Positions 1-15,573 of a stretch of DNA of 55,688 nt are shown here, one piece after another. Positions within the stretch are counted from its first letter, which is position 1. Each line of letters starts with the position of its first letter. Below the pieces are notes generated by a model. That model saw nothing but the letters and a program-made list of their open reading frames with translations. It had not been told where the DNA came from and made no database searches. The stretch spans positions 1 to 55,688 of the forward strand of contig MNXM01000224.1 of NCBI GenBank assembly GCA_001872605.1, written 5' to 3'. A program made the position numbers and the translations under genes. This DNA is from Armatimonadetes bacterium CG2_30_59_28 (GTDB lineage: Bacteria; Armatimonadota; Abditibacteriia; CG2-30-59-28).

Positions 1-639
1 GATTGAAGAAGAGGTTGCGCGGCGTCCGGGTTGTAGCGCGAACCTAACCTTCCCCCGGAACAAGTCCGGGGGGATTGCCATTACCGAATCAAACTGTCAA
101 ATAGCATAACCCCCCACTACCTTTTCGGGAACTATGGGACAGTATTTTTGACCACCTACATATCCCCGTCGAACGGGTGACAAAGCTGGAGCTTTATCCT
201 ACTTCATCCTTCCGCCCTCCCCGACGCGTCGGGAGGCTGGCCAAGGACAAGCCCTTCGGGCTGAGGGAACGACAATGCCCATGGAGGGGGGCGTACCGCG
301 AATCAACTCCACCCCTGAGGGGATCGCCACAGTGACCACTCCCTGCGATGGCAAAACCTCATTTTGGATAATGTACACATCTTCCGGGATGCACCCTGTC
401 AACGCTTCCACTTCCGCGTGGCAAGCCGCGACGCCGACCTCTCCGGCGCGGCCGCTTGGAGCATCTCCGGTTTCCATGCTATACTTCGGCAAGCTCAAGG
501 TTCTCGACCACACCCACTCGTCAGAAAATGCGGATTCCGGAATGCGGAATGGATCACATCCTTGCACGCCGGGTTTTTATCTCGCGTGGTGTGGGCAAGT
601 CGGCATGGGTGATTCTTTCAGCATAGTTGAGTATTCTCG
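1..639. other. Repeat-rich region without a confident gene
   Basis: No reading frame here carries a recognisable domain. The region holds a hairpin with 8-bp arms (CCCCCGGA/TCCGGGGG, 52-72), a palindrome AAAGCT-gg-AGCTTT (182-195), a perfect 14-bp palindrome CCCGACGCGTCGGG (220-233), a small hairpin AGCCC-ttc-GGGCT (250-262) and a dispersed repeat copy (542-620). A 122-codon frame on the - strand (199-567) and overlapping + frames are open but run through these repeats and match no family I know. The first ~50 bases could be the 3' end of a gene lying outside the window; this cannot be decided here. Confidence 0.5.
542..620. repeat. Dispersed ~80-bp repeat, copy 1
   Basis: This stretch aligns almost without gaps to 47860-47938 with roughly 80% identity, sharing blocks such as ATGCGGAATG, GCACGCCG, ATCTCGCGTGGT and CAAGTCGGCATGG. 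This copy lies just upstream of the recJ start. On the - strand both copies keep a 9-codon ATG frame (MPTC..HAR) ending in a stop. Neither copy is coding in any convincing way. It looks like a small dispersed or non-autonomous element. Confidence 0.7.
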
Positions 640-2397
640 ATGCGGCAAAAGACACAGAGACGCTGGCGGATTCTCCGGAGAATCGACGCGGAATCTCGCG
701 CTCTCGCGGAGACGCTGGGCATCCATCCGGTGTCTGCGTGTGTACTGCTGAACCGCAACCTCACTGAACCGGCAGCGCTCCAACATTTCTTGAACCCCTC
801 TCTTGAAAGTCTTCATGACCCCTATCTGATGAAGGACATGGACAAGGCCGTGGCGCGCCTTCGTCAGGCCATCGATGGACAAGAGCGGGTAATGATTCAT
901 GGGGACTATGACGTGGACGGCGTCGCTGCTACCGCGATGATGGTGCGCATGTTGTCCGCTCTTGGCGTTGATGTGACCCATCATATTCCGCACCGAGTGG
1001 ACGAAGGGTATGGCGTGAGCGCTGAGGGGATCAGGCAGGCAGCCGCGAACGGCGTCAAGCTGGTGGTGACCGTGGATTGCGGCATCTCGGCGTATGAGGA
1101 GGCGCTGCTGGCGCGTGAGCTTGGTCTGGACCTCATCATCACCGATCACCATCAGCCCCCCCCCGCTTTTGAGTCCCAGATTGCCTATTTTGGGGCCGCG
1201 GTCGCGGTCCTGAACCCCAACCGGCCAGATTGCGGGTATCCATTCAAAGGCCTGTGTGGGTGCGGGGTGGCCTACAAACTGGCGACTGCCCTTGTCGAAA
1301 ACCTCGGACACCCCGGCAATGCTCTGCAGCGCGCCTACCTCGACCTGACGGCCCTCGCCACAATCGCCGATATTGTGCCGCTCAGGGACGAGAATCGCGC
1401 CATCGCCCAATTCGGGTTGGAACGCCTTTCCGACACAAAGAAGCCAGGGCTGAAGGCATTGATGGGGGTGTGCGGTATTGCAGGGAAACGTTTGTCAAGC
1501 TACCACGTCGGTTTCGTGCTGGGGCCGAGGTTGAATGCTGCTGGCCGCCTCGACACTGCGGAAACAGCCCTGAATCTGCTTCTCACAAGAGACGACTCCG
1601 AGGCAGGGCGACTCGCTGATGCCCTGAATCAACTGAACCGCGAACGCCAGGAAGAGGAATCGTCGACGCTGCAGGATGCAGAGCTGATGATCGAGTCTGG
1701 CGCGGATGCTCTTGGGGGTGACATCCTGCTCGATTCAGACAAGGCGCTGGTGCTCGCCTCCGAAGACTGGCACATGGGGGTCGTAGGCATTGTTGCCTCG
1801 CGGCTCGCGGAGCGTTACGTCCGCCCGACAATCCTCATCACCATGGGAGAAGATGAGGGAAAAGGTTCGGGTCGCAGCATCCGTGCCTTCGATCTGAAGA
1901 AAGGACTCGACGGTTGCGCAGATTATCTGGTGGGCTACGGCGGACACGCGCAGGCGGCAGGCCTGACTGTGACTCGAGGCCAATTGTCTCAGTTCCGCGC
2001 CCGGTTTCTGCAGGTGGCAGACGAGCAGTTGGGTGCGGACGACTTGATTCCGGTAGTCGATATCGATTGCGAACTAGGCCCCAGAGACCTGACCTTCGAG
2101 TTGGTCAACGAACTTCGCCGCTTCGAGCCTTACGGACATGAGAACCCCGGCCCGGTTTTCGCGATCCGCGGAGCGAAACTGCTGGATCAGTGCACGGTGG
2201 GGGCCAACGGTAAGCACCTGAAACTGCGCGTTGGTTTTTGGGAAGCCTCCTACGATGCCCTCTGGTGGCGCAAGGGAGACAACTTCGGAAGGTTCTCTCG
2301 TCACCAGCTTCTCGACCTCTGCTTTTCTCTCGACATCAACGAGTACCAGGGCATCCCCAGCATGCAATTTGTAGTGAAAGATGTACAGCCTTCATAG
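640..2397 (+). CDS. recJ: Single-stranded-DNA-specific exonuclease RecJ
   Basis: RecJ is a 5'-3' exonuclease acting on single-stranded DNA in recombination and mismatch or base-excision repair in the cytoplasm. The 585-aa length is normal for the family. The DHH phosphoesterase motifs are visible: HGDYDVDG near residue 90, VTVDCGIS near 145 and ITDHH near 168. The DHHA1 glycine motif GGHAQAAGLTV lies near residue 435, followed by the C-terminal OB-type domain ending in FVVKDV. The ATG at 640 has no strong Shine-Dalgarno, but its position suits the usual RecJ N-terminus (reading ...AETLGIHPVSACVLLNR). The downstream DUF4091 frame overlaps the end of recJ by 17 nt, suggesting cotranscription. 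Confidence 0.95.
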   Translation: MRQKTQRRWRILRRIDAESRALAETLGIHPVSACVLLNRNLTEPAALQHFLNPSLESLHDPYLMKDMDKAVARLRQAIDGQERVMIHGDYDVDGVAATAMMVRMLSALGVDVTHHIPHRVDEGYGVSAEGIRQAAANGVKLVVTVDCGISAYEEALLARELGLDLIITDHHQPPPAFESQIAYFGAAVAVLNPNRPDCGYPFKGLCGCGVAYKLATALVENLGHPGNALQRAYLDLTALATIADIVPLRDENRAIAQFGLERLSDTKKPGLKALMGVCGIAGKRLSSYHVGFVLGPRLNAAGRLDTAETALNLLLTRDDSEAGRLADALNQLNRERQEEESSTLQDAELMIESGADALGGDILLDSDKALVLASEDWHMGVVGIVASRLAERYVRPTILITMGEDEGKGSGRSIRAFDLKKGLDGCADYLVGYGGHAQAAGLTVTRGQLSQFRARFLQVADEQLGADDLIPVVDIDCELGPRDLTFELVNELRRFEPYGHENPGPVFAIRGAKLLDQCTVGANGKHLKLRVGFWEASYDALWWRKGDNFGRFSRHQLLDLCFSLDINEYQGIPSMQFVVKDVQPS

Positions 2398-4192
2398 CAT
2401 TGAGTTTCTCATGCACTACTCGCGCCTTGCCTGCGTTATTGCTTCCGTTACTTTTTTCCTCGGATCCGGTCTCGTCTGGTGGACGAACCGATCAGTGGCG
2501 ACTTCGGAGAACCTCCGCGTTGCCGTGTGGGTTGTTGATCCGATGGAAAACGTCTTCCGCACGGCGCAGCCCCCGCCCGACGCGCCCGACAAGATTGAGC
2601 TCCATGCGGTCCGCAATGAGTTTGAGTGCGCGCAGATTGTGTTGCGCTCGGAGGAACGGATCGACGAACTGTCCGTCCAGTTCGCCTCACTAACATCATC
2701 CGTCGGTCGCATTGAAGCATCCAACTTGCGATGGAACGTGGTCGGATATGTTCCCGTGCAGAAGAACACGCCGAAGACCCCCGCGTCCGAATTGGCCGGC
2801 ATAGCGCCGGGGGAGTTCCCCGACCCGCTGCTGGAAAAGGCATCCTTTGCCCTCGCCCCGGGACGCTCCCAGCCTCTTTATCTGACCTTCCGAGTCCCCG
2901 TCGATACACCGCCCGGGGAATACCGTGGCGCCGTGCAAATCACCGCCGGTGAGACGAACGCGGATACTGCAGTGGCGGAGGTTCCCATTCTCCTGACCGT
3001 TCATGGAGCAGCCCTTTCCGAGGAGAGGCACTTCGGTTTTACTTCGTGGTTCAGCGCCGGTGACCTGGCGAAACAGCACGGCGTCACCGTATGGTCGGAG
3101 GATTTCTGGAGACTACTTCCCGCATACGCTCGCAATCTGAACGAGCACCGCCAGACGATGATTCTGACTCCCATGGAACTGATCAAAGTCAACCGGGCAG
3201 CCAATGGGTATCTCACCTTCGACTTCAGCCGGTTTGATCGATGGGCAAGGCTGTTCGTCGACGCGGGGGTTCCGGTGCTCGAAGGCAAGGAGATGGGGCG
3301 CCGGGTTGGCAAATGGACTTCGCCGTTGATGGAATTCCACCCAGTGCCGGTGAATGATCCTCTGAAGGCGACGCGCAAGCCTCTCCCAAATGACGCTGTG
3401 CTGCGCGCATTCTTCGGGGCGCTTGAGCAGCGCCTCGAAAAGCAGGGATGGCTGGATCGGTTTGTCATGCACGTTTCGGACGAGCCAACCCGATACAACT
3501 ACCCATCCTGGCGGAAGATGTCGCAATTCATTCGTGCCGCTGCGCCGCGGCTTCGTCGCATCGAGGCCAATCAGACGACGGAACTGGACGGAGATATCGA
3601 GATATCGGTGCCTCAGTTGGACAGTTTCGGTGTGGGGATGGATCGTTATTCGGCAAAGCGGAACCAGTACGGGAATGAGCTTTGGTTCTACACTTGCATG
3701 TACCCCACCGGCGCCTTTGCCAATCGCTTCGTAGACTACCCGCTGATCAAGACCCGACTGCTGCCGTGGATTGCCGCGCGCTACGGTCTCACCGGTTACC
3801 TGCACTGGGGGTACAACTACTGGAGTGAGAGGCCCTTCGAGTTCGTCGAGAGAAGCAACCTTCCACCCGGGGATTCCTTCGTCGTGTACCCTGGGAAGAA
3901 CGGGCCGCTCAACTCGCTTCGGTGGGAGATGTTCCGGGAGGGAATTGAGGACTACGAGTGTTTGCTTTTGCTGAGTCAGAAACAACAGACGCATACCACC
4001 CGCACACAGCCTCCCAGCGCGTCACCCCTCCCCCCGCTCGTTCATCAACCCAGTGAAGAAGTCGCGCAGTATATGCGGGCTATCGCCGCTCGGATGGTGT
4101 ACGCGCCGGACCAGTACAATCTCTCCCATCAGGACTTCAACGCGCTGCATCGGCAAATCCGGCAGATGCTGGCAGCGAGGACAAACGGTTGA
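2381..4192 (+). CDS. Exported DUF4091 / glycoside-hydrolase-like protein
   Basis: A 603-aa protein with an N-terminal membrane or signal segment (residues about 10-30), a beta-sandwich region (about 45-210, AVWVVDPMENVF onward), and a TIM-barrel-like half ending in the typical DUF4091 signature: a conserved HWGYNYW segment near residue 470, then a region resembling GKNGPLNSLRWEMFREGIEDYE. DUF4091 proteins are predicted glycoside hydrolases acting outside the cytoplasm; the substrate is unknown. The frame starts at 2381, overlapping recJ; ATG 2411 is an equally plausible start because it sits directly before the hydrophobic segment, and neither has a clear ribosome binding site. Family assignment is from memory of the motif; no substrate can be inferred. 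Confidence 0.82.
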   Translation: MYSLHSIEFLMHYSRLACVIASVTFFLGSGLVWWTNRSVATSENLRVAVWVVDPMENVFRTAQPPPDAPDKIELHAVRNEFECAQIVLRSEERIDELSVQFASLTSSVGRIEASNLRWNVVGYVPVQKNTPKTPASELAGIAPGEFPDPLLEKASFALAPGRSQPLYLTFRVPVDTPPGEYRGAVQITAGETNADTAVAEVPILLTVHGAALSEERHFGFTSWFSAGDLAKQHGVTVWSEDFWRLLPAYARNLNEHRQTMILTPMELIKVNRAANGYLTFDFSRFDRWARLFVDAGVPVLEGKEMGRRVGKWTSPLMEFHPVPVNDPLKATRKPLPNDAVLRAFFGALEQRLEKQGWLDRFVMHVSDEPTRYNYPSWRKMSQFIRAAAPRLRRIEANQTTELDGDIEISVPQLDSFGVGMDRYSAKRNQYGNELWFYTCMYPTGAFANRFVDYPLIKTRLLPWIAARYGLTGYLHWGYNYWSERPFEFVERSNLPPGDSFVVYPGKNGPLNSLRWEMFREGIEDYECLLLLSQKQQTHTTRTQPPSASPLPPLVHQPSEEVAQYMRAIAARMVYAPDQYNLSHQDFNALHRQIRQMLAARTNG

Positions 4193-4324
4193 GTCGCCGT
4201 CCCGCTCCGCGCCCGTGTAAATGGGACTGAACAACCTGCGCACGGATTCGTCTAACGACGACATATATCAAACATGTGCGGCTCATTGTCCCCGGCAGGG
4301 GCGCCGCCAAAGGAGGTTCCAGTC

Positions 4325-4993
4325 ATGAAGACGAGACAGAGATGGTGCAGTCGGATACCAGGATGGATCGCCGCGGCGGGAGTTGGCTTCACGCTGACGG
4401 CGGCAGCCGCTCAGGAAGGTGTCCCACCCCCGCCAGCCAACGAGAATCCGCAGGGGCAGAACAGGGATGCAGAGCGGGAGCGTTGGCGCAACATGACTCC
4501 CGAAGAACGACGCGCGCAGATGGAGCAGTTCATTGCGCAGCGATTGAGGCAACGGGGGTTTAGCGACCAAGATATTGCCGCTCTCAAGCAGTACAACTCC
4601 GAGCGCGAGGAAGCGCAGAAGTCCCTCGGAGAGGTCTTCCGTTCCTTGTCCCAGACAGCCAAAACACCTGAGTCCACCGAGGACCAGGCCCGCATCGCGA
4701 TCGCCGGATACAAGGAAGCGATGAAGACTCACGAGGCTACTCTGGAGAACTCGCGCAAGAAGCTGGACGAATCCATCCACTATTCGACCCGACCGAAGAT
4801 CGAGGCCATTCTTCTCACCATGGGTGTGCTGGACAACGGAATGGGCCTTGGTATGGGCATGGGCATGAGAAGAGGGGACGGAATGGGCGACGAAGCAAAC
4901 AAGCCTCTCCGAGGGGAAGGGCAACGTGGCGGACAGCGTCAGGGCCAGGGCGGCCAACCTCCCGCGGAACCCCCCAAGGCGCCAATGAACTGA
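4325..4993 (+). CDS. Exported Met/Gly-rich helical protein, function unknown
   Basis: Start ATG 4325 is chosen because AAAGGAGG lies at 4309-4316, 8 nt upstream; an upstream in-frame ATG at 4274 has no such site. The 222-aa product has a signal peptide (basic MKTRQRW, then a hydrophobic stretch ending AAAAQE), a charged predominantly helical middle (MTPEERRAQMEQF, about residues 50-165), and a low-complexity C-terminus with alternating Met-Gly (NGMGLGMGMGM) and Gln/Gly/Pro. The helical part resembles periplasmic Spy/CpxP-type or LTXXQ-like proteins in composition, but I do not see a diagnostic LTxxQ motif. No enzymatic role can be assigned. Confidence 0.7.
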   Translation: MKTRQRWCSRIPGWIAAAGVGFTLTAAAAQEGVPPPPANENPQGQNRDAERERWRNMTPEERRAQMEQFIAQRLRQRGFSDQDIAALKQYNSEREEAQKSLGEVFRSLSQTAKTPESTEDQARIAIAGYKEAMKTHEATLENSRKKLDESIHYSTRPKIEAILLTMGVLDNGMGLGMGMGMRRGDGMGDEANKPLRGEGQRGGQRQGQGGQPPAEPPKAPMN

Positions 4994-5111
4994 CAGCTTG
5001 TCGGTGGAGCGACCTGCAGGGTCCCATGCGGTCATCCTTCTGTCGCCTGCTCGTTGCGCGCCCGCGCGTGCCAGCCGGGGAGACCACGGGCGGGACGCCC
5101 TTGCCACTGGA

Positions 5112-7550: not shown

Positions 7551-8543
7551 TCATCTCCGTACTGCCGACCACGCGGAGCCGCCGCTGCCGCGTCCCCAGG
7601 TGCCGTTCAACGAATCTCCATGAAGCGTCGCCTGGATGACCCACTGGGTGCGCACATCCACGTGCAACGTCCCCGACAGCGTGTTGCCGGACACGGTTCC
7701 CTGGAATGTCGCTCTCTTGCCGTTGGGGTAGACGCAGTAGCCCTGGAGGTTGGAACCACTTTGGGTGAGCGCTCCGGGGATGCTGTCACGACCCCACTGG
7801 CAGTTCCAGTTGCCGCTGAAATTCGCGCGCCCTGTTGACGCGGCCGGTTCGGGTCTCGACAGTTGTGGGGGTGGAGTGGGCGACGGTCGCCGAGCAGGTG
7901 GCGGGGGTGTGTATGTTCTCCGAAGGGTCGACGGGGGAGCCGGAGCGGTTGGCGATGGAGATGGTTGCGGCGCTGACTTCGCGGCGACGGTCGGCTGCCA
8001 CTCCCACGGCGCTATCGGGTTTGGAGACGCCCACAACCCCCGCTGCGCTTTGCGGGCATCGGCCTCACACGCCGCCAGAATTCCATCATCGGGCGCGCTC
8101 TTGCGATCCCACCATGCGTCGCCACACCAGACCAGGGCACGATTAAGACTCTTGTCTCCGGGCAAGGCCACAATCCCCACAACCTGGTCGTCTCCTTCGC
8201 GCCTCTTTACTTCGACGACAACTTCCTTACCGGAACACATGGTGGTACACGCCTTCCGCGATTCGACGCCGTGAGGCTGTCCCTCCTCCGGGGCGTCAAT
8301 TCCGTAGAGACGGACGCGATCGTTCTTTCCGTCTTTTGCGACCTCGATCATGTCTCCCTCATGCACAGCTAACACCCTCACGGAATACCGGTTGGAAGAT
8401 GGTGAAGTGCTGGGGGCGGGTCGTGACTCTGCGCGGGCTACTTCCTCAACCTTGCGGGAGCATCCCTGCCCGGCCCAAAGGGCCAACACCAACAGCAAAG
8501 GCAAGCCGAGAATTTGGTGCGCGATGACAAGATGGTGAAGCAT
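7551..8543 (-). CDS. Thermonuclease-family (SNase-like) exported protein, catalytic Arg not conserved
   Basis: Start ATG 8543 is preferred because GAGGTG lies 7 nt upstream; longer frames reach 8576. The 330-aa product has a hydrophobic leader ending in AGQGC, compatible with a weak lipobox. An OB-fold SNase domain follows (about residues 50-190) with RLYGIDAPE, matching the Arg35 and Glu43 positions of staphylococcal nuclease, and the downstream LNRALVWCGDAWW segment. The motif that normally supplies the second catalytic arginine (YGRxxA) reads DQVVGIV here, so nuclease activity is doubtful. A Pro/Ser/Thr-rich linker (about 190-250) leads to a C-terminal beta-rich domain (NFSGNWNCQWG...LSGTLHVDV) of unknown role. 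Confidence 0.85.
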   Translation of the reverse strand: MLHHLVIAHQILGLPLLLVLALWAGQGCSRKVEEVARAESRPAPSTSPSSNRYSVRVLAVHEGDMIEVAKDGKNDRVRLYGIDAPEEGQPHGVESRKACTTMCSGKEVVVEVKRREGDDQVVGIVALPGDKSLNRALVWCGDAWWDRKSAPDDGILAACEADARKAQRGLWASPNPIAPWEWQPTVAAKSAPQPSPSPTAPAPPSTLRRTYTPPPPARRPSPTPPPQLSRPEPAASTGRANFSGNWNCQWGRDSIPGALTQSGSNLQGYCVYPNGKRATFQGTVSGNTLSGTLHVDVRTQWVIQATLHGDSLNGTWGRGSGGSAWSAVRR

Positions 8544-8678
8544 GGGAGGACACCTCATACTTTCCTGAACATCCAATCAGACCATGTCACTGGCATTCTA
8601 CTACAGCCCACAAGTCCACTGCAACGGACCGTTCGGGAGCACTAGATCCGAGGACAGATTGACGCGCAGTCCCGACCA

Positions 8679-8707
8679 TTGACAATCGTGCCAACATTGA
8701 CTAACCT
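8679..8707 (+). promoter_or_regulatory. Candidate sigma70-type promoter for the DGR operon
   Basis: TTGACA at 8679-8684 is followed by a 17-nt spacer and TAACCT at 8702-8707. The -35 is a perfect consensus but the -10 is weak. It lies 67 nt before the HEAT gene, the first gene of the target-avd-RT series, and no better promoter is visible between the genes that follow. Confidence 0.45.
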
Positions 8708-8773
8708 CATGGGCGAGTTTGTGATACGGGCAACCTTTGTTGTATTGCCTTCTCTTGAGCGGAGGTGTCTTCC

Positions 8774-9775
8774 ATGGTGCATCCAAGGATCGTTAGACTC
8801 ATCGGGTTAATCACGGTGTGGGTGGTGCAGACGACGATGGGGTTCGGAGCACCCGCGGGCTCACCGTCGGGTCGCAGGAACGCGCTCATCCAACAGGCCG
8901 CGAAGGGAACGGCCGCGATTCCGGCCCTTTCTGCCGCTTTGCAGGATGAGAATCTTGTGGTGCGGCGAACGGCGGCGCGATTGCTGGTCGAGTTGGGCTC
9001 GCCCGCGCGGGAGGCATTGGTAGAGGCTTTGGGCAACCCCGACTTTCTCGTTCGACGCTCTGCCCTGTGGGCGGTGTGCGATCCGCTGACCGCGGAGTCG
9101 CTGCCGCATCTCAAGAAGGCCGCCAAGGACCCAGATGCCCTGATGCGACTCACTGCCGTCAACCTGCTCGTGCAGTTCAAGCCGCGAACAAAGGAAGTTA
9201 ACGATCTTCTGGAACAAGCGAGGCAGGACGAATCGGGCGCGGTGCGGGACGTCGCCGCGCAGGCGGTGTGGCCGTTCTTCAAAGAGACGATCTCCATTCG
9301 CGACCGCAAAGATTGGGACCGTGACATCAAGGTCGTCCAGACCATTCCCCTGCCGAAGGAGGGCTGGCGCCTCAAGGAAGACCCCCGGAGCGATGGACAT
9401 TTGTTGAAATGGTACGAACCGGGCTTCAACGATTCGGCCTGGTCGGCCATCGACATCGAATCGGCCTGGGAAGAGCAGGGACACAAGTACGACGGCATCG
9501 CGTGGTATCGCGGCTCGTTTGACCTGCCGGCAAAGCCTGATTGTCTCGCTGTGGAGATCGCCTTCGGCGCGGTGGACGAGATCGCGTGGGTCTGGATCAA
9601 CGGCCGGTACGTCGGTCAGCACGACCTCGGCACCGAGGGTTGGGACAAACCATTCACCCTCGATGTGACGAAGGAACTGAAGTGGGGAGAGAAGAACCAG
9701 ATCACCGTGCGAGTGTATGACAGCGCCTACGCAGGCGGCATCTGGAAGCCGGTGAAGATTGAGGTGCTGAAGTAG
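8774..9775 (+). CDS. Exported HEAT-repeat protein with GH2-type jelly-roll domain
   Basis: ATG 8774 has GGAGG 8 nt upstream (8761-8765) and is favoured over the in-frame GTG at 8765, which lies inside that site. The 333-aa product has a signal peptide (ending near GFGAPAG), then about four HEAT-like helical repeats (residues about 30-165, e.g. LVVRRTAARLLVELGSPAR and FLVRRSALWAV), then a C-terminal galactose-binding/GH2 sugar-binding-like jelly roll (GIAWYRGSFDLP, VWINGRYVGQHDLGTEGW). It is a scaffold or binding protein, not an enzyme as far as can be seen. It sits 34 nt upstream of the DGR target gene in the same direction, so it could be coexpressed with, and possibly bind, the diversified protein; that partnership is inference. 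Confidence 0.85.
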   Translation: MVHPRIVRLIGLITVWVVQTTMGFGAPAGSPSGRRNALIQQAAKGTAAIPALSAALQDENLVVRRTAARLLVELGSPAREALVEALGNPDFLVRRSALWAVCDPLTAESLPHLKKAAKDPDALMRLTAVNLLVQFKPRTKEVNDLLEQARQDESGAVRDVAAQAVWPFFKETISIRDRKDWDRDIKVVQTIPLPKEGWRLKEDPRSDGHLLKWYEPGFNDSAWSAIDIESAWEEQGHKYDGIAWYRGSFDLPAKPDCLAVEIAFGAVDEIAWVWINGRYVGQHDLGTEGWDKPFTLDVTKELKWGEKNQITVRVYDSAYAGGIWKPVKIEVLK

Positions 9776-9809
9776 GGAATCATCAGCATTATCTTCAAGG
9801 AGACGTGAT

Positions 9810-12647
9810 ATGACAGACAAGTTGCGCAAAGCGCTTTCGGTGGCAATACTGACGCTAACGGTTGCTGGACTTGTATGCTTCGTGACGGCGGTCGTCGGCC
9901 AGGAAAGCAATAAATCAACGGGCACGGGATTCATCGTGGATCCGAACGGCTATCTGCTCACGTGTCATCACGTGGTTGAGGATTCAGGTAAAGTGGAGGT
10001 TGCCATCGGCGGGAAGACCTACGAGGCGACAGTGCTGGCGAGTGACGAGAAGCGCGACCTTGCTCTGCTGGAGGTCAAGGCGAAGGGACTGACGCCTTTG
10101 CCGCTGGCGAACTCCAACCAGGTCGAGGTGGGGCAGGAAGTGCGGGCGTTCGGCTTTCCCATATCCAGTTTGCTGGGCGCAAACGTGAAGGTGACGCGCG
10201 GCACGGTGTCAGGCATCGAGACGAAGGAGGCGCAGAAGGTCTTTCAGATCGACGCTCCGGTGAACCCGGGCAATTCCGGTGGGCCGCTGGTCAACGAACA
10301 GGGTGAAGTCGTGGCTGTTGTGAACGCCAAACTGGCCGGTTCAGTGGTGTCCAATGTCGGCTTTGCGGTGCCGATCAACTACGCCAAGACAACCTTGCAC
10401 GACAACGGGGTGGAGTTCGCCACCGCAGGGTCGAAGGAGAAGTTGGATGGTCCCGCTCTCGTCAAGCGCGTGTCGCCTTCGGTTGTTCTCATCACGGTCA
10501 CACCCAAAGGCGCCGCGCGGGAGGGCGAGGCTCCCGCCGAGCCACGCACGCCCGTTACACCTCCTCCGCCATCCCGCGCCGAAGACATGAAGAAAGCGCA
10601 AGCCGACGCATACGCGGAGTTGAAGAAGAAAGGCGTCGCATCGCCACCGGGGATGGTGCTTGTTCCTGCCGGTGAGTTTGAAACGGAGGACGGATCGAAG
10701 GTGTCTCTCAACGCCTTTTGGATCGACAAGACCGAGGTGACCAACGCCGAGTTCCAGAAGTTCGTGAAAGCTACAGGGCATCCACGGGAGGGTAAGGCTC
10801 CTGCCGCACCCGGCTCAGCAGTAAGCGCAGCGGCAGCTTCGCCCTCCCCCGATGAGCCGGTCACGAACGTAACCTGGGCGGATGCAGCCGCGTACGCCAA
10901 ATGGGCGGGGAAGAGAGTCCCCAGCGAAGCGGAGTGGGAAAAAGCCGCGCGCGGGACGGACCGGCGCGTCTATCCCTGGGGCAACGACTTCGACGCCGCG
11001 AAGGCAAACGGAGATGGTCAGGCCGATGGCTTCAAAGGCGCGTCGCCGTCGGGCACCTTCAAAGATGGCTTCTCTCCCTGGGGTGCGCTCGACATGTCGG
11101 GCAACGTCTGGGAATGGTGTAGTAACGACTTTAGTCGTTCGGTAGGCGACTCAAGTCGCGACTACAAGGGGCTGTCGAAGGTGATTCGCGGTGGCTCGTT
11201 TGCTTCCAGTGAGAAAGGATTGCGTTGTGGCCAGCGGGCAGCCTTGTTGCCGAACTTGTCCCTCAATGAACTTGGGTTCCGTTGTGTGAAAGATGAGCCC
11301 AACCTTGCCGCCGTCCCTGGCCCCACGTCCCCCGTCCCAGCTACGACAGAATGGGAGGGCGTCCTCAAGTTCAAAGGCGAAGCCGCGGAGTTGAAGTGTA
11401 CGCCGAAGTTTGAGCAGGTGACGTTTCAGACAAGCCTCGGGACGTTGACCCTCAAGAAGGAATACATCCAGTCCCTCGCACCCAACGAAGTGCAACTGCT
11501 TGGAGGTTCGGTGCTGAAAGGGAAGCTACAGGACGCCACCTTGCCGGTGCTCTGGTCGTTGGGCGAGCGACAGATTGCTGCGGCGGAGGTGGAGAGATAC
11601 CAGCGCGCCATCGAGCCGCCGGTGGTGAGTGTGGGGGTGACGAAGGATGGAGTCGTGGTTCCTCCAGGTTTTGGCGCGCAGCTTACGTTGAAGGACGAGA
11701 GCATCGTGGTGGGCGACTTGCAGGAGAAGGAACTACGCATGCGCCTCGTCGGAGTGGGCGAGACCTCAATCCCGACCGAGAAGGTCGTCCAGTTGGTCGC
11801 GGAAGGTAATCGCCTCCTGACCGTTCTCAAGGACGGAAACACCGTGCAGGGAGAACTGCTGGGCGATTACCACCTGATCTTGCTGGAAGGCAACCTGACG
11901 CTTACCGGCGGCGAGCGACTGGCCTCTCTGAGTTTCGTGCATCGAGGCGTCTCCGGACTCATTAGCCGAATAAACCCCAAGGATGGCGCGTGGATGGTGT
12001 GGATACCGACAGAAGGCAAGACGGCCGCCCAGGGCTTCTGGATGTACAAGTACGAGGTCACGAATGCACAGTACCGCAAGTTCATCGAAGCGAATCCGGA
12101 ATGGCAGTCAGGTGGAGCGAAGGCGAAGCAGCTTGCAGACTCTGACTACCTCAAACACCTGCGCGGCGATGACAAGGAGTATGCCTCTACCGATGACAAG
12201 TGTCCCGTGGCGTGGGTCTCATGGCATGCCGCCAAGGCGTACGCGGAATGGGCGGGGTGTCAGTTGCCCACTCACGACCAGTGGGAATGGGCCGCACGCG
12301 GCGGGCTGACGGGAAAGAAGTATGTGTGGGGTGACGAGTGGCCTCCTCCGAAGGGCGCGGGGAACTTCGCCGATCAGACGGCGAAGAAGAAGTGGAACTG
12401 GAGTGTCATTGAAGGCTATGATGACGGCTATGCCGGGACCGCGCCCGTGGGTAGTTTCTCAACCAACGGTTACGGGTTGCACGACATGGCAGGGAATGTG
12501 TGGGAGTGGGTGTCTGAGCAAGGACAACTGCGGGGCGGCTCGTTCGGCAGCTACGGTCCCGACGTCATCGCCGTCTCGTATCGCTTCTGCGGCATTCCGC
12601 AGTTCTGCTACGGCTGCTACGGGTTTCGTTGCCTGAGGACTCAATAA
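9810..12647 (+). CDS. DGR target: exported HtrA-like protease with two FGE-sulfatase/C-lectin-fold domains
   Basis: A 945-aa protein; AAGGAG lies 7 nt before ATG 9810 and residues 1-31 form a signal peptide or anchor. Residues about 37-215 are a trypsin-like serine protease with an apparent triad His54 (TCHHVV), Asp83 (KRDLALL) and Ser156 (GNSGGPL). The first FGE-sulfatase/CLec-fold domain spans about 280-495 (WIDKTEVTNAEF, DMSGNVWEW, GFRCVKDEP). Residues about 515-720 are beta-rich repeats. The second CLec domain spans about 725-945 (YKYEVTNAQY, LHDMAGNVWEW) and its last 39 residues are the DGR variable region. It lacks an obvious formylglycine-synthase Cys pair in its active site and should be read as a ligand-binding fold. 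Repeat-derived insertions occur at residues 236-246 and 325-334. Cotranscription with avd and the RT is likely. The protein probably acts at the cell surface or outside the cell. Confidence 0.93.
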   Translation: MTDKLRKALSVAILTLTVAGLVCFVTAVVGQESNKSTGTGFIVDPNGYLLTCHHVVEDSGKVEVAIGGKTYEATVLASDEKRDLALLEVKAKGLTPLPLANSNQVEVGQEVRAFGFPISSLLGANVKVTRGTVSGIETKEAQKVFQIDAPVNPGNSGGPLVNEQGEVVAVVNAKLAGSVVSNVGFAVPINYAKTTLHDNGVEFATAGSKEKLDGPALVKRVSPSVVLITVTPKGAAREGEAPAEPRTPVTPPPPSRAEDMKKAQADAYAELKKKGVASPPGMVLVPAGEFETEDGSKVSLNAFWIDKTEVTNAEFQKFVKATGHPREGKAPAAPGSAVSAAAASPSPDEPVTNVTWADAAAYAKWAGKRVPSEAEWEKAARGTDRRVYPWGNDFDAAKANGDGQADGFKGASPSGTFKDGFSPWGALDMSGNVWEWCSNDFSRSVGDSSRDYKGLSKVIRGGSFASSEKGLRCGQRAALLPNLSLNELGFRCVKDEPNLAAVPGPTSPVPATTEWEGVLKFKGEAAELKCTPKFEQVTFQTSLGTLTLKKEYIQSLAPNEVQLLGGSVLKGKLQDATLPVLWSLGERQIAAAEVERYQRAIEPPVVSVGVTKDGVVVPPGFGAQLTLKDESIVVGDLQEKELRMRLVGVGETSIPTEKVVQLVAEGNRLLTVLKDGNTVQGELLGDYHLILLEGNLTLTGGERLASLSFVHRGVSGLISRINPKDGAWMVWIPTEGKTAAQGFWMYKYEVTNAQYRKFIEANPEWQSGGAKAKQLADSDYLKHLRGDDKEYASTDDKCPVAWVSWHAAKAYAEWAGCQLPTHDQWEWAARGGLTGKKYVWGDEWPPPKGAGNFADQTAKKKWNWSVIEGYDDGYAGTAPVGSFSTNGYGLHDMAGNVWEWVSEQGQLRGGSFGSYGPDVIAVSYRFCGIPQFCYGCYGFRCLRTQ
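10518..10543 (+). repeat. In-frame intragenic palindromic repeat (copy 1) in the DGR target
   Basis: A 26-bp unit beginning CGGGAGGG and containing GGCTCC, encoding REGEAPAEP, lies in the linker after the protease domain. It agrees with 10785-10810 at 21 of 26 positions and contains GGGAG/CTCCC and GGCTC/GAGCC arms. The same peptide-coding repeat is, as I recall, frequent in Planctomycete- and Armatimonad-like genomes. Confidence 0.6.
10785..10810 (+). repeat. In-frame intragenic palindromic repeat (copy 2) in the DGR target
   Basis: This second copy of the 26-bp unit encodes REGKAPAAP and lies inside the first FGE-like domain, between FVKATGH and the conserved DEPVTNVTW strand. It therefore sits in a surface loop and keeps the reading frame. 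Confidence 0.6.
11119..11165 (+). repeat. Double palindrome inserted in-frame in the first FGE-like domain
   Basis: Two adjacent palindromes, AACGACT-tt-AGTCGTT (11124-11139) and GCGACT-ca-AGTCGC (11146-11159), are bounded by GTAG at 11119 and CTAC at 11161. They encode a Ser/Arg/Asp-rich loop directly after the conserved GNVWEWCSND motif. The form (CGACT...AGTCG) matches the style of the nrdJ and SNF2 palindromes in this window. Confidence 0.6.
12526..12642 (+). repeat. DGR variable repeat (VR)
   Basis: The 117-bp VR is the last part of the target gene, starting within codon 906. It aligns without gaps to the TR at 14199-14315 with 23 mismatches. Twenty-two are at positions where the TR has A; they alter 13 codons that are all AAC or AAT in the TR. 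The remaining mismatch (12638, G against TR C) lies at the 3' edge. The first 20 bases and several internal blocks (CCCGAC, ATCGCCGTCTCGTATCGC) are identical. The variable residues in order are G S Y G, V, F C G I, F, Y G C, the usual exposed positions of a CLec-fold variable region. Confidence 0.97.
12618..12637 (+). promoter_or_regulatory. Candidate IMH (initiation of mutagenic homology)
   Basis: A 20-bp block, identical in TR and VR, closes the variable part and includes GGGTTTCGTTGCCTGAG. It is directly followed by the single non-adenine difference (G in VR, C in TR). In characterised DGRs a GC-rich identical block at the VR 3' end marks where mutagenic cDNA is taken up, with a slightly different IMH* next to the TR. 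The role here is inferred from that position. Confidence 0.7.
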
Positions 12648-12684
12648 TCTAACCCTTTATACTTTTTTCTTTTGCCCTTTACAG

Positions 12685-12728
12685 GATGGCGGCTTCAGCC
12701 GCCATCTCGCCGAGCGGAGCGAGGCGGC
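12685..12728 (+). promoter_or_regulatory. GC-rich hairpins downstream of the VR
   Basis: A perfect inverted repeat GATGGCGGCT (12685-12694) and AGCCGCCATC (12697-12706) lies 48 nt after the IMH. A second possible stem uses GCCGC plus CTCGC (12698-12710) against GCGAG plus GCGGC (12719-12728); the two overlap and exclude each other. Hairpin or cruciform structures just downstream of the VR help target recognition in some DGRs. This one is farther from the IMH than the well-studied examples, so a terminator or a generic palindromic repeat is an alternative. Confidence 0.5.
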
Positions 12729-12756
12729 CGGCGGATTTTTTCGAGAGGCTTGGCGT

Positions 12757-13125
12757 ATGGATTCGAGTGCAACGCGACAAAGGGAGGCACCTTCCGCGGT
12801 GCAGAAGGCGTATGACTTCATGTTGTGGATGTTGCCCCACACGGCAAAGTATGCGAGGAACTACAAATACACGCTTGGCAGCGAGGTGCAACGGTACACC
12901 TTGCTTGTTCTGGAACGTCTCGTCGAGGCAAGCTACACCCGGTCGAAGATAGACCTGTTGCAGGAGGCGAATACGAAGCTGGAGGTTCTACGATATCTCC
13001 TGCGGTCGAGTTGTGACTTGCAGTGCATTTCTATTCGCCAATACGAATGCGCCATCAAGATGCTCTACAATCTGGGAGTTGAGGTGGGCGGATGGCTCAA
13101 AGAGCAGAGAGGGAAAGCGAATTGA
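12757..13125 (+). CDS. avd: DGR accessory variability determinant (Avd-like four-helix bundle)
   Basis: The 122-aa protein matches the bacterial Avd/23S-intervening-sequence-like family: AYDFMLWMLPHTAKYARNY, LGSEVQRYTLLVLERLVEA, a Lys/Leu-rich third helix (EANTKLEVLRYLLRSSCDL) and a closing helix ending LGVEVGGWLKEQ. Avd forms a positively charged pentameric four-helix barrel that binds the RT and the TR-containing RNA and is needed for mutagenic retrohoming in studied DGRs. GAGAGG lies 8 nt before the ATG. It ends inside the RT start region; the TGA stop overlaps a TTG start for the RT, so translation is probably coupled. Confidence 0.93.
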   Translation: MDSSATRQREAPSAVQKAYDFMLWMLPHTAKYARNYKYTLGSEVQRYTLLVLERLVEASYTRSKIDLLQEANTKLEVLRYLLRSSCDLQCISIRQYECAIKMLYNLGVEVGGWLKEQRGKAN

Positions 13126-14309
13126 AGAGGTACGGGGGCCTGGCGGAGGCTTTCTGCTCATTTGAGAATCTGTTCGTGGCGGCGCGCAAAGCCCAGCGCG
13201 GCAAGCGCGACCGTCCTTCAGTCGGGCGCTTCAACCACCGCCTGGAATGGGAACTGCTTCGGATGCAGAGGGAGCTGGAGGCAGAGACATACCAATTTGG
13301 GCGGTTCTTTGAGTTTCGCATCACCGATCCCAAGCCGCGTCTCATCAGCGCTGCGCCTTACCGCGACCGCGTGGCTCACCATGCCTTCTGCAACGTGGTG
13401 GAGCCTGTCCTGAACCGAGGATTCATCAGTGATTCCTATTCCTGCCGTGTGGGGAAAGGGACACACAGAGCCGTGGATCGGTTTACCCAGTATGCGCGGC
13501 GATATCGTTACGTGCTGCGAGCAGACATCAGCAAGTACTTCCCGAGCATCGACCATGACGTGTTGCTGTCACTCATCCGGCGGAAGATCAAGGACAGGAA
13601 GCTGCTATGGTTCGCGGAGAGCGTTGTCCGGCACAGTAATCCTCAGGATCCAGCGCTCCACTATTTTCCGGGGGACCACCTCTTCACACCGTATGAACGC
13701 CGGAGAGGGATCCCCATCGGGAACCTGACCAGTCAACTTTTCGCCAACCTGTATCTCGATCCCCTCGACCATTTCGTGAAAGAAGTGCTGCGCTCTCCTG
13801 GCTATGTCCGCTATACCGATGATCTGGCGCTCTTCAGCGATGACAAGGGCTGGTTGTGGTGGGCTGCGGAAGAGATGACCAGTTTTCTGCAGCGATTTCG
13901 TCTGATCCTGCATAAGCGGAAGCTCTACGTACAGCCAACACGAGTCGGGACGGACTTTCTCGGATACCAGGTGTTTCCCGATCATCGTCGGTTGCGGCGC
14001 TGCAATGGGGTGCGGTTCCAACGCCGTCTGGGTGAGTTGCAGCGCCAGTATGCGTGCTATGAAGTTGACCTTGAAAACGTGCATGCGTCGGTGCAGTCCT
14101 GGATCGCTCACGCTTCGCATGCGGATACCCACGGATTGCGGACCGCTGTGCTGGCAGAGACAGTCTTCCAGCGCGGCGCCACATCGGGAGCAGGGAAGAA
14201 CTGCGGGGCGGCTCGTTCAACAACAACAATCCCGACAACATCGCCGTCTCGTATCGCAACAACAACAATCCGCAGAACTGCAACAACAACTACGGGTTTC
14301 GTTGCCTGA
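13122..14309 (+). CDS. DGR reverse transcriptase
   Basis: The start is taken as TTG 13122, which overlaps the avd stop as TTGA, has GAGAGGG 8 nt upstream and gives the family-typical N-terminus MKRYGGLAEAFCSFENL; ATG 13092 is the alternative. The 395-aa product carries LISAAPYRDRVAHHAFCNVVEP, motif A Asp135 in RADISKYFPSIDH, the DGR-specific IGNLTSQ at 199-205 (QGxxxSP in most other RTs), and the catalytic YTDD at 231-234. No maturase, endonuclease or retron msr/msd is present. The usual family end (WIAHASHADTHGLR...VFQRG) is followed by about 36 residues encoded by the TR in a different frame, giving a Thr/Arg-rich tail ending at a stop inside the TR. The RT makes adenine-mutagenised cDNA from TR RNA. 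Confidence 0.95.
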   Translation: MKRYGGLAEAFCSFENLFVAARKAQRGKRDRPSVGRFNHRLEWELLRMQRELEAETYQFGRFFEFRITDPKPRLISAAPYRDRVAHHAFCNVVEPVLNRGFISDSYSCRVGKGTHRAVDRFTQYARRYRYVLRADISKYFPSIDHDVLLSLIRRKIKDRKLLWFAESVVRHSNPQDPALHYFPGDHLFTPYERRRGIPIGNLTSQLFANLYLDPLDHFVKEVLRSPGYVRYTDDLALFSDDKGWLWWAAEEMTSFLQRFRLILHKRKLYVQPTRVGTDFLGYQVFPDHRRLRRCNGVRFQRRLGELQRQYACYEVDLENVHASVQSWIAHASHADTHGLRTAVLAETVFQRGATSGAGKNCGAARSTTTIPTTSPSRIATTTIRRTATTTTGFVA

Positions 14310-14315
14310 GCACTC
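14199..14315 (+). repeat. DGR template repeat (TR)
   Basis: This 117-bp repeat is the invariant donor for the VR. Read in the target frame it encodes LRGGSF, then four Asn, PD, Asn, IAVSYR, four Asn, PQ, Asn, Cys, three Asn and YGFRCLST. All 13 Asn codons are AAC or AAT, the arrangement that lets adenine mutagenesis reach many residues without creating stop codons. It lies at the 3' end of the RT gene and overlaps its coding frame up to the stop at 14307-14309. Confidence 0.97.
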
Positions 14316-14370
14316 CATCGAGCTTCTGAGTCAGAATTCCGAGAGTCCACGGACACGGAAGCATACTCAG

Positions 14371-14481
14371 GGAGTCCATTTCCTGCGTCCGGGTTTGGGG
14401 GGCAGCCCCCGGGCCGAATACCAGAAAGCCCGGCGGCGGCTGGTAGTCCTGAGGAATCAGGACGAACGTCGTCGCCGGGCA
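14371..14481 (+). repeat. Structured repeat A (two-helix, RNA-like)
   Basis: This copy shares GGAGTCCAT, GTCCGGGTT, CCGAATA, CCCGGCGGCGGCTGGTA and GAACGTCGTCGCC with copy B at 15449-15573. Helix 1 pairs 14392-14401 with 14406-14415 (10 bp, three U-G wobbles). Helix 2 pairs 14428-14440 with 14468-14480 (13 bp, two G-U pairs) and encloses a GTCCTGA/TCAGGAC stem closed by a GGAA tetraloop. Wobble pairs and helix conservation favour an RNA. It begins 55 nt after the TR. It could be a small RNA, a guide-RNA-like relic of an IS605/IscB-type element, or a REP-type repeat. Confidence 0.6.
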
Positions 14482-14509
14482 GTTTCGTAGAGCGCGGGCT
14501 CCCGGTGCA

Positions 14510-14538
14510 TTGACACGTCTCGGCATCCCTCCTATGCT
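14510..14538 (+). promoter_or_regulatory. Strong sigma70-type promoter of the first toxin-antitoxin cassette
   Basis: TTGACA at 14510-14515, a 17-nt spacer and TATGCT at 14533-14538 lie 67 nt before the antitoxin start. Confidence 0.65.
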
Positions 14539-14605
14539 GTTGGTATCCGAGATGCAACAACTCACTCCCAGCATTCTACTGACATAGTCGATTGGAGGCA
14601 CACCC

Positions 14606-14851
14606 ATGACACCTGCCGTAGTCGAGGCCATTGAGAGCGTTCTGAAACTGCCGCCACAAGAGAGGGCCGATCTCGCGACTCGCCTCATCGAGAGCCTGGA
14701 CGAGGAAGTAGACGAGGAAGTCGCAGCCGCCTGGGACGCTGAGATAGCGCGCCGAATACGCGAGCTGGACGCGGGTTTGGTAGAGCCGATTCCTTGGTCC
14801 CAAGCGCGAGACATGATTCTGGGTTTGGACGATGGGCTTGGCAGAGCTTGA
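14606..14851 (+). CDS. Antitoxin of the addiction-module component family
   Basis: An 81-aa acidic protein with the pattern of the unstable antitoxin/addiction-module family (PF09720-like): a short N-terminal helix (VVEAIESVLKLPPQERADLATRL), then ESLDEE..DEEVAAAWDAEIARRIRELDAG, in which the WDAEI-x-RR motif and the following acidic residues are typical. It would neutralise the ParE/RelE-type toxin encoded next. The toxin gene starts 20 nt before its stop, so the two are translationally coupled, antitoxin first, as usual for this type II system. Confidence 0.85.
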   Translation: MTPAVVEAIESVLKLPPQERADLATRLIESLDEEVDEEVAAAWDAEIARRIRELDAGLVEPIPWSQARDMILGLDDGLGRA

Positions 14852-15128
14852 GCTGCATCCTGAAGCTGTGGCGGAGGCGAAGGCGACGCGGGAATGGTAC
14901 GCGGAGCGCAGCCCTCGCGCTGCCGCGAGGTTCGTCATTGAATTGGACGGCGCGCTCGGGAGGATCCGAGAGTTCCCCGATTTGTGGCCGTCTTACCTGC
15001 ATGGCACGCGCAGGTGCCTTTTGCACCATTTCCCTTATCAGATCGTGTACCGCCAACTCGACGACGTCATCCAGGTAGTCGCCGTAGCCCATTGCCGTCG
15101 TAGACCTGGTTACTGGCGTCACAGGTGA
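14832..15128 (+). CDS. ParE/RelE-superfamily toxin
   Basis: A 98-aa basic protein with the ParE/RelE fold pattern: ELELHPEAVAEAKATREWYAERSPRAAARFV, a central FPDLWPSYLHGTRRCLL, then HHFPYQIVYRQLDDVIQVVAVAHCRRRPGYW. The ending HxRR-P-YW is typical of ParE-like toxins that pair with addiction-module antitoxins. Such toxins either poison gyrase or cleave mRNA on the ribosome; sequence alone cannot decide which. It starts within the antitoxin gene and is followed 5 nt later by a zinc-finger gene. Confidence 0.87.
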   Translation: MGLAELELHPEAVAEAKATREWYAERSPRAAARFVIELDGALGRIREFPDLWPSYLHGTRRCLLHHFPYQIVYRQLDDVIQVVAVAHCRRRPGYWRHR

Positions 15129-15132
15129 AACG

Positions 15133-15377
15133 ATGATTTCACAGGACACACGCAAATGCACTCGGTGTGGAGTACAGACCGAGTGGACTCTCACGTCGGT
15201 GGAGATGACCGACGAGCACTCCTCGGTCACTGTGACGGGGGTGCCAGCGATGGTCTGTCCCCGTTGTGGAGAGGAATATGTTCCCGGACTGCAAGCGATG
15301 TCGCTGACTAACGCCGCTGAGGGGATCTTCAGCGTTCTCCGGGGGGGGGGACACAACCCGTCGAAGCCGTCGCATAG
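15133..15377 (+). pseudogene. YgiT/MqsA-type zinc-finger protein with a poly-G tract that decides its frame
   Basis: The product begins MISQDTRKCTRCG and has two CxxC pairs (CTRC, CPRC) around VTVTGVPAMVCPRCGEEYV, the pattern of YgiT-type zinc-finger proteins related to the MqsA N-terminus. Ten G residues follow at 15341-15350. As read, the frame continues to 15621 through repeat B, which looks unnatural. With one more G it would end at 15377 after TQPVEAVA, giving about 83 residues, near the family's size. The tract may be phase-variable, a recent mutation or a sequencing error. The gene follows the toxin by 5 nt and may be a third member of the cassette. Confidence 0.6.
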
Positions 15378-15448
15378 TCACCAGCCGTTGGTGTCCAGCC
15401 CTGGCCGCTGCGAGGTCCCTTTTACGGTGTGGAAGGGAGAGTGCGGGT

Positions 15449-15573
15449 GGAGTCCATCACAGAGCGAGGAATCGCTGCGGTTTCGAGTCCGGGTTGAGGG
15501 AGAGCCTCAGCCGAATAGACAACCCGCCCGGCGGCGGCTGGTACACCAGACGGCTGAACGTCGTCGCCCGGCA
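15449..15573 (+). repeat. Structured repeat B (two-helix, RNA-like)
   Basis: This diverged copy of the element at 14371-14481 keeps both helices. Helix 1 pairs 15492-15499 with 15505-15512; compared with copy A, T-G and T-G change to T-A and G-C, and another pair becomes A-T, which is covariation. Helix 2 pairs 15526-15538 with 15560-15572, 12 of 13 positions with two G-U pairs. An extra AGCGA-ggaa-TCGCT stem precedes helix 1. Copies A and B bracket the antitoxin-toxin-zinc-finger genes in the same orientation. Confidence 0.6.

Follow-up and report, generated by a model that had tools for sequence, protein, structure and literature searches.

A diversity-generating retroelement with a protease-linked variable target and a conserved RNA beside its template repeat in an Armatimonadetes draft genome

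We analysed a 55,688-nt stretch of DNA from Armatimonadetes bacterium CG2_30_59_28 (contig MNXM01000224.1, hereafter the window), taken from a draft genome of 344 contigs, which suggests a metagenome-assembled genome. It carries what is, very probably, a complete and structurally intact bacterial diversity-generating retroelement (DGR), predicted from its sequence to rewrite a variable repeat (VR) from an RNA template. As an earlier note on this DNA had claimed, target gene, VR, avd, reverse transcriptase (RT) and template repeat (TR) all lie on one strand (+). The interval proposed there, 8679-14315, does contain the element, but it also takes in a separate open reading frame (ORF) at 8765-9775 and leaves out a conserved RNA after the TR. 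The element is a DGR ordinary in kind; its target is uncommon and the adjoining RNA is useful. What it contributes is a clean DGR whose target, a protease-lectin, is rare, in a genome that holds several DGRs. Published systems are cited below from excerpts of the papers concerned, and contigs of the draft genome and compared loci carry the prefixes C and L. The parts of the element are as follows.

9810-12647, + strand: target gene, 945 aa (ORF; Pfam Trypsin_2 and two FGE-sulfatase stretches)
9921-10319 (aa 38-170), + strand: HtrA-like trypsin domain of the target (Pfam Trypsin_2, 5e-36)
aa 280-494 of the target, + strand: first FGE domain (Pfam FGE-sulfatase)
12006-12644, + strand: second FGE domain of the target, which bears the VR (Pfam FGE-sulfatase)
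12526-12642, + strand: VR, at the 3' end of the target gene (TR/VR alignment)
12685-12706, + strand: hairpin-forming inverted repeat, a 9-bp GC-rich stem with a TTCA loop, 42 bp after the VR
12757-13125, + strand: avd, accessory variability determinant (Pfam bAvd, 3e-16; NCBIfam DivGenRetAVD; PHROG Avd)
13092 (or TTG 13122) to 14309, + strand: DGR RT (Pfam RVT_1, tree, structure match)
14199-14315, + strand: TR, nearly all within the RT reading frame (stop 14307-14309; TR/VR alignment)
14305-14485, + strand: predicted structured 3' part of the template RNA, DGR spacer-like and RT-14-like (model match 14369-14481; fold z -4.1)

The repeats carry the clearest signature of the element. The longest direct repeat reported in 8000-15500 pairs 12526-12645 with 14199-14318 (80% identical, spacing 1673), and within it TR and VR differ at 23 of 117 positions. 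Our alignment reproduced the count given in the earlier note, with 22 of the 23 differences at TR adenines, and the adenine bias claimed there is strong (hypergeometric P ~1e-13, with 35 A in 116 positions). In the 111-nt core (12526-12636) every one of the 22 differences falls at an adenine; the sole non-adenine difference is a C>G at 12638. Each of the 13 AAY codons in the TR has a first- or second-base change in the VR, without any stop codon arising. The identical block at the 3' end, which resembles an initiation of mutagenic homing sequence, measures 21 bp (12617-12637) and not 20 bp as first reported. From TR to VR there are 12 A>G, 10 A>T and no A>C changes. We considered the missing A>C as a substitution bias, since A>C makes up 207 of 1439 changes in the pool of compared pairs (the window and a few doubtful pairs included) versus 0 of 22 here, and dropped it as too weak to use at a ~3% chance by hand calculation.

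A search for further VRs of this TR, which the note had suggested, found none in the draft genome. The best other place, on C114, is 69% identical and has 22 adenine and 10 non-adenine differences in 102 positions; because of these non-adenine differences we regard it as a sister target and not as a second VR. As a side observation, an Acidobacteriia locus (L042 1730-11074) has one TR and four VRs in four separate ORFs. The hairpin after the window VR had a stem longer than any found in shuffled sequence (0 of 30 shuffles reached 9 bp). Stems of at least 8 bp follow 18 of 94 VRs, and 44 of the 94 reach p <= 0.05 against 30 simple shuffles. The window hairpin differs from what is described for the BPP-1 DGR in its loop (TTCA/TGAA versus GRNA) and in its distance from the VR (42 bp versus 4-34; PMC3240598).

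The genes between the repeats are those expected of a DGR. The product of avd passes the NCBIfam NF033474 (DivGenRetAVD) cut-off (96.6 versus 80 bits), which bears out its earlier annotation. The RT likely starts at TTG 13122, overlapping the avd stop, because homologues begin MKRYGNL there. Its motif is PIGNLTSQ, in agreement with the claim that IGNLTSQ stands in place of QGxxxSP. We compared it in a quick tree of 52 RTs, comprising 32 DGR rows (the window and 31 others, four of the 32 being labelled by the (I/L)GNxxSQ motif itself) and 20 other RTs; L137, L140 and L152 had no usable ORF and L141, L144 and L148 were duplicates or a fragment, and these six were left out. All 32 DGR rows, the window RT among them, fall on one side of a branch with a Shimodaira-Hasegawa-like approximate likelihood ratio test (SH-aLRT) value of 98, and the window RT adjoins the C328 RT of the same draft genome (96). 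The (I/L)GNxxSQ motif is present in 32 of 32 DGR RTs and QGxxxSP in 19 of the 20 others. The best solved-structure match is 8ub7, titled 'Reverse transcriptase' (E 1.5e-50), which we take to be the BPP-1 DGR enzyme; the best group II intron RT reaches 5e-18. Tree, motif and structure match thus agree with the earlier statement that the RT has no features of retrons or group II introns. Against the 80 best of 249 relatives from one genome scan, the window RT is 47-58% identical (47-53% to cyanobacterial ones), and it is 34% identical to the BPP-1 RT.

Downstream of the TR lies an RNA that we find next to TRs in many other bacteria. The sequence 3' of the TR is alike among cyanobacterial relatives; a MAFFT alignment of 25 of them has 42 base pairs, 28 of which show compensatory changes, and served as the basis of a covariance model (R1). 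A second model (R2) was made from the 3' part of 26 diverse members, excluding the window and including the C106 sister. In 94 loci R1 gave 78 matches at E <= 1. It matched 71 of the 80 RT-scan loci, 25 being training sequences and one, L076, being reached only at E 0.05. Among 42 non-training matches in loci with a TR found, 41 begin at -12 to +63 nt relative to the end of the TR, and the exception is a second RNA copy in L047; 11 further matches are in loci where no TR was found. The RNA stays by the TR also where the TR precedes the RT (L039, L040, L042, L049, L052, L055, L057, L060 and L076). In a model-fitted alignment of the 78, which by its making leans to its own structure, pairing holds in 94.4% of cells and covariation scores 0.747, compared to 0.08-0.13 for slid partners. 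Judged by record titles and tree labels, the TR-RNA pairs come from nine named phyla (Cyanobacteriota, Acidobacteriota, Poribacteria, Nitrospinota, Nitrospirota, Pseudomonadota, Marinimicrobia (Fidelibacterota), Myxococcota and Thermodesulfobacteriota), to which R2 adds Bacteroidota (L073) and KSB1 (L078, L082). An RNA beside the TR in nine named phyla, and in the source genome's own, provides a handle for DGR searches that does not need a VR/TR comparison.

R1 misses the RNA of the window; its only match there (49716-49829, E 0.8) was treated as chance. Scanned across the draft genome it gave no match among the 150 of 985 candidates scored, and it found the C106 element when that locus was supplied. 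R2 matches the window at 14369-14481 (53.6 bits, E 5.1e-11), also with the search filters off, and 14300-14500 folds with a z of -4.1. Across the draft genome, where 150 of 814 candidates were scored, five R2 matches reach E <= 0.1, and all are at DGR loci: two on C126 and one each on C106, C133 and C328. No R2 match occurs in 29 loci without a visible DGR, 133,614 bases in all. Furthermore, R2 recovers four of the nine RT-scan loci that lack an R1 match, with no match in the other five (L045, L056, L085, L095 and L102), so that the element is found in 75 of 80 overall. Among 29 viral contigs found via their RT, 14 match R2 at E <= 0.1, several of them near-duplicates, and in 11 of the 14 (L170, L171, L172, L174, L178, L180, L182, L183, L187, L188 and L189) the RNA match ends 16-33 nt before the RT match.

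The RNA resembles an Rfam family, RT-14 (RF02921). Right after the TR, RT-14 scores 46.8 bits in L046 and 42.4 bits in L063, two of six relatives scanned, and has no match at E <= 0.1 in the other four (L028, L015, L016, L061); its gathering threshold of 48.1 bits is reached neither in window 12400-15000 nor in these six. The window RNA itself differs in having no RT-14 match at E <= 1 and is linked to the family through R1 and R2 only. The helix layout of RT-14 is that of the MAFFT-based alignment. Because two relatives match right after the TR and the layout is the same, RT-14 probably is this DGR RNA, in which case the Rfam family would gain a function. A literature search for 'RT-14 RNA' had no match, and no title or abstract opening was recognised as describing this RNA across DGRs; we make no claim that it is unpublished. 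Separately, a HEARO RNA (RF02033) lies at L063 4904-5120, ~4 kb from a cyanobacterial DGR TR.

In phage BPP-1 the spacer next to the TR recruits RT-Avd and primes cDNA synthesis (PMC12875486), and regions around the TR have been put forward as predicted parts of the ribonucleoprotein (PMC12691664, 2025). By analogy, we read the RNA 3' of the window TR as the putative RT-Avd-binding spacer of the template RNA. Its position and companions suggest that it corresponds to the BPP-1 spacer (2743-2886 of NC_005357, between TR and brt). As R1 and R2 do not find that spacer, the likeness is one of place, with homology unsupported. The conserved RNA offers a concrete region in which RT-Avd binding and cDNA priming can be sought outside phage BPP-1. 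The window DGR is also like that of BPP-1 in its avd, its TR, a VR at the 3' end of the target, an RNA 3' of the TR and a hairpin after the VR (PMC3240598, PMC12875486). It is unlike it in gene order: the window TR lies 3' of the RT, whereas the BPP-1 TR is between avd and RT.

The relation of TR to RT frame was surveyed in 83 loci (the window, two sister loci of the same draft genome and the 80 relatives). A TR was found in 67 of them, after the RT stop in 55, before the RT in 10 and overlapping the RT frame in two (the window and L067); in the other 16 none was found. The window thus agrees with the 57 of 67 loci in which the TR is 3' of the RT. One of the 10 loci with the TR first, L097, is doubtful, with a better TR on the other strand. 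In 38 of the 55 loci with the TR after the RT, the RT stop comes 6-26 nt before the TR. The conserved part of the window RT ends near 14173-14189 (VFQRG), and the frame then continues through the TR to a TGA at 14307-14309, adding ~40 residues whose codons lie in the TR and immediately upstream of it. The C328 sister RT carries a TAG where the window frame stays open, and the open frame may be a base error in the assembly. Such an overlap of the TR with the 3' end of the RT ORF is already in print as DiGReF structural group 3 (PMC3521204), from which the window element does not differ in principle. Read as protein, 14173-14309 gives a threonine-rich tail.

In the target protein an HtrA-like protease is fused to a variable binding domain; the protease matches HtrA/DegP profiles with scores under their cut-offs. 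The hydrophobic N-terminus resembles a signal or anchor, and the protein is probably exported. The VR occupies the 3' end of the second FGE (C-type-lectin-fold) domain, whose predicted structure (mean predicted local distance difference test score 77.8) matches formylglycine-generating enzymes by Foldseek. We scanned 49 DGR targets (those of the window and two sisters, plus one per locus for 46 loci), chosen from 94 candidate VR-bearing ORFs with short and minus-strand ORFs left out. An FGE domain was present in 49 of 49; among the 25 families listed of 38, a caspase was found in seven targets, a kinase in three, EAD1 in one and Trypsin_2 in one, the window's own. Like cyanobacterial DGRs and those of multicellular bacteria (PMC7517822; 'clade 5' of PMC10907252), the window DGR has an RT in the identity range given above, a C-terminal VR of FGE type and several DGRs in its genome. 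It departs from them in its fused trypsin/HtrA domain and in the RT frame that runs into the TR; in the excerpts of PMC10907252, trypsin occurs on other proteins and not fused to the variable one. Given a target that is probably exported and has an N-terminal HtrA-like protease, the cassette most likely changes which partners are recognised by a binding domain linked to a protease. A sensor and effector on one chain would fit this fusion, and substrate or surface binding would fit too.

From this anatomy we propose how the element would work. Transcription would yield an RNA with the TR and the folded region 3' of it. RT and Avd would bind this RNA and reverse-transcribe the TR, making errors opposite its adenines, and the resulting cDNA would replace the 3'-terminal VR of the target gene by retrohoming. 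The identical 3' block, and probably the hairpin after the VR as well, would guide this replacement. As many as 13 residues between RGGSF and GFRC in the C-terminal FGE domain would thereby be rewritten. Low-level adenine mutation was reported on resequencing for a Nostoc punctiforme DGR (PMC12691664).

Several results weigh against parts of this reading, and we considered them together with other explanations. No near-identical RT, and so no close strain for VR comparison, was found among 150 relatives (best 55%). R2 has no match in BPP-1 1-5000, R1 has three chance-level matches there (E 2.9-4.5), the one at 2680-2825 (E 4.5) overlapping the spacer, and Rfam has no match at E <= 1 in window 12400-15000. 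The window RT lacks its normal stop, which could be an assembly error or damage. Damage of this kind would suit a recently inactivated DGR, whose VR records past mutagenesis and which no longer works; the ~40 extra residues, the truncated DGR RT on C133, the C106 target frame that ends before its VR and the TR-less RNA copy nearby all fit such a history. We nevertheless consider it unlikely, since target, avd and RT frames are open and the core 12526-12636 shows no VR/TR difference outside adenines (22 of 22 at A). Two further explanations are extremely improbable. That TR and VR arose by ordinary gene duplication or gene conversion between two FGE repeats might be suggested by the two FGE domains of the target, but it is already refuted by the adenine bias (22 of 23, P ~1e-13); moreover the TR is read in another frame than the VR, within the RT ORF, and avd and RT lie between the two. 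Similarly, group II, retron and defence-associated RT (DRT) profiles do match the RT, below cut-off where one exists, so that an intron, retron or defence RT might be thought of; the tree already refutes this, and the absence of QGxxxSP from the RT and of Rfam matches from 12400-15000, the 8ub7 match and the presence of Avd and TR/VR all speak against it as well.

The biological role of the target is where an alternative has most force. Where DGR targets of FGE type have vWA, caspase or trypsin partners, they have been tied to conflict systems of multicellular bacteria (PMC7159879, PMC10907252), and by this analogy the target probably acts in conflict or sensing. The Pfam scan of 24 window ORFs, the DGR's three included, weighs on the other side: MoxR, vWA, STAND and effector-associated domains are absent from them, as are the components of a MoxR-vWA/VMAP ternary conflict system, so the conflict role draws on other DGR targets and sister cassettes. 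It is a distinct possibility that the target is instead an adhesin, secreted or at the cell surface, or else a protease adapted to its substrates. The hydrophobic N-terminus with its HtrA-like protease points that way, as do the carbohydrate-active genes around the target (GHL10, GH123, heparinase-like and pectate-lyase-like). The caspase, kinase and EAD1 domains on other targets of this RT group (7, 3 and 1 of 49, among the families listed), the vWA-like domain on the sister target on C114 (23.6 bits, just under the Pfam cut-off of 23.8) and the published link of such domain make-up to conflict systems argue for a conflict sensor.

The draft genome holds four near-full DGR RTs (C126, C328, C106 and C122), three besides the window's, and a fragment on C133. 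TR/VR pairs were found for C126, C328 and C106. The N-terminal parts of the targets differ, with trypsin in the window, DnaJ on C106 and FGE only on C328. The frame of the C106 DnaJ-FGE target ends before its own VR (L016 2968-3082), which may be either a genuine break or an error of the assembly. Avd-like N-termini of 28 residues occur close to the ends of C114 and C165. On C133 (L018 10870-11760), a truncated DGR RT is accompanied by a TR-like repeat and the RNA element; no VR for this TR-like sequence was found in the own-genome loci compared.

The window neighbours with a Pfam match are mostly carbohydrate and housekeeping genes. A toxin-antitoxin pair directly follows the DGR (14606-15128), and beyond it is a second RNA copy. 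These features outside the element are:

8765-9775, + strand: HEAT-repeat/GH2-N-like ORF, neighbour (Pfam)
14606-14851, + strand: antitoxin, neighbour (Pfam Unstab_antitox)
14832-15128, + strand: ParE-like toxin, neighbour (Pfam ParE_toxin)
15466-15573, + strand: second copy of the RNA element, no TR in front (R2 33.6 bits, E 2.8e-6)

The second copy is ~1 kb downstream of the first, with the toxin-antitoxin pair and a zinc-finger-like ORF in between. Against the whole draft genome its R2 match has an E of 1.1e-4 (150 of 814 candidates scored), and the match includes several non-standard pairs. No TR is seen in front of it. On a plain reading it would be a relic of a lost or rearranged cassette. 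One could go further and imagine that an exported protease with sensor and effector on one chain is being diversified, that the RNA is one conserved RT-Avd-binding domain of many phyla, identical with RT-14, and that TR-less copies act in trans, for example by binding RT-Avd and restraining mutagenesis; we regard this combination as a long shot. Extra RNA copies without a visible TR are also present in two Poribacteria loci (L044 3561-3735 and L047 12348-12438).

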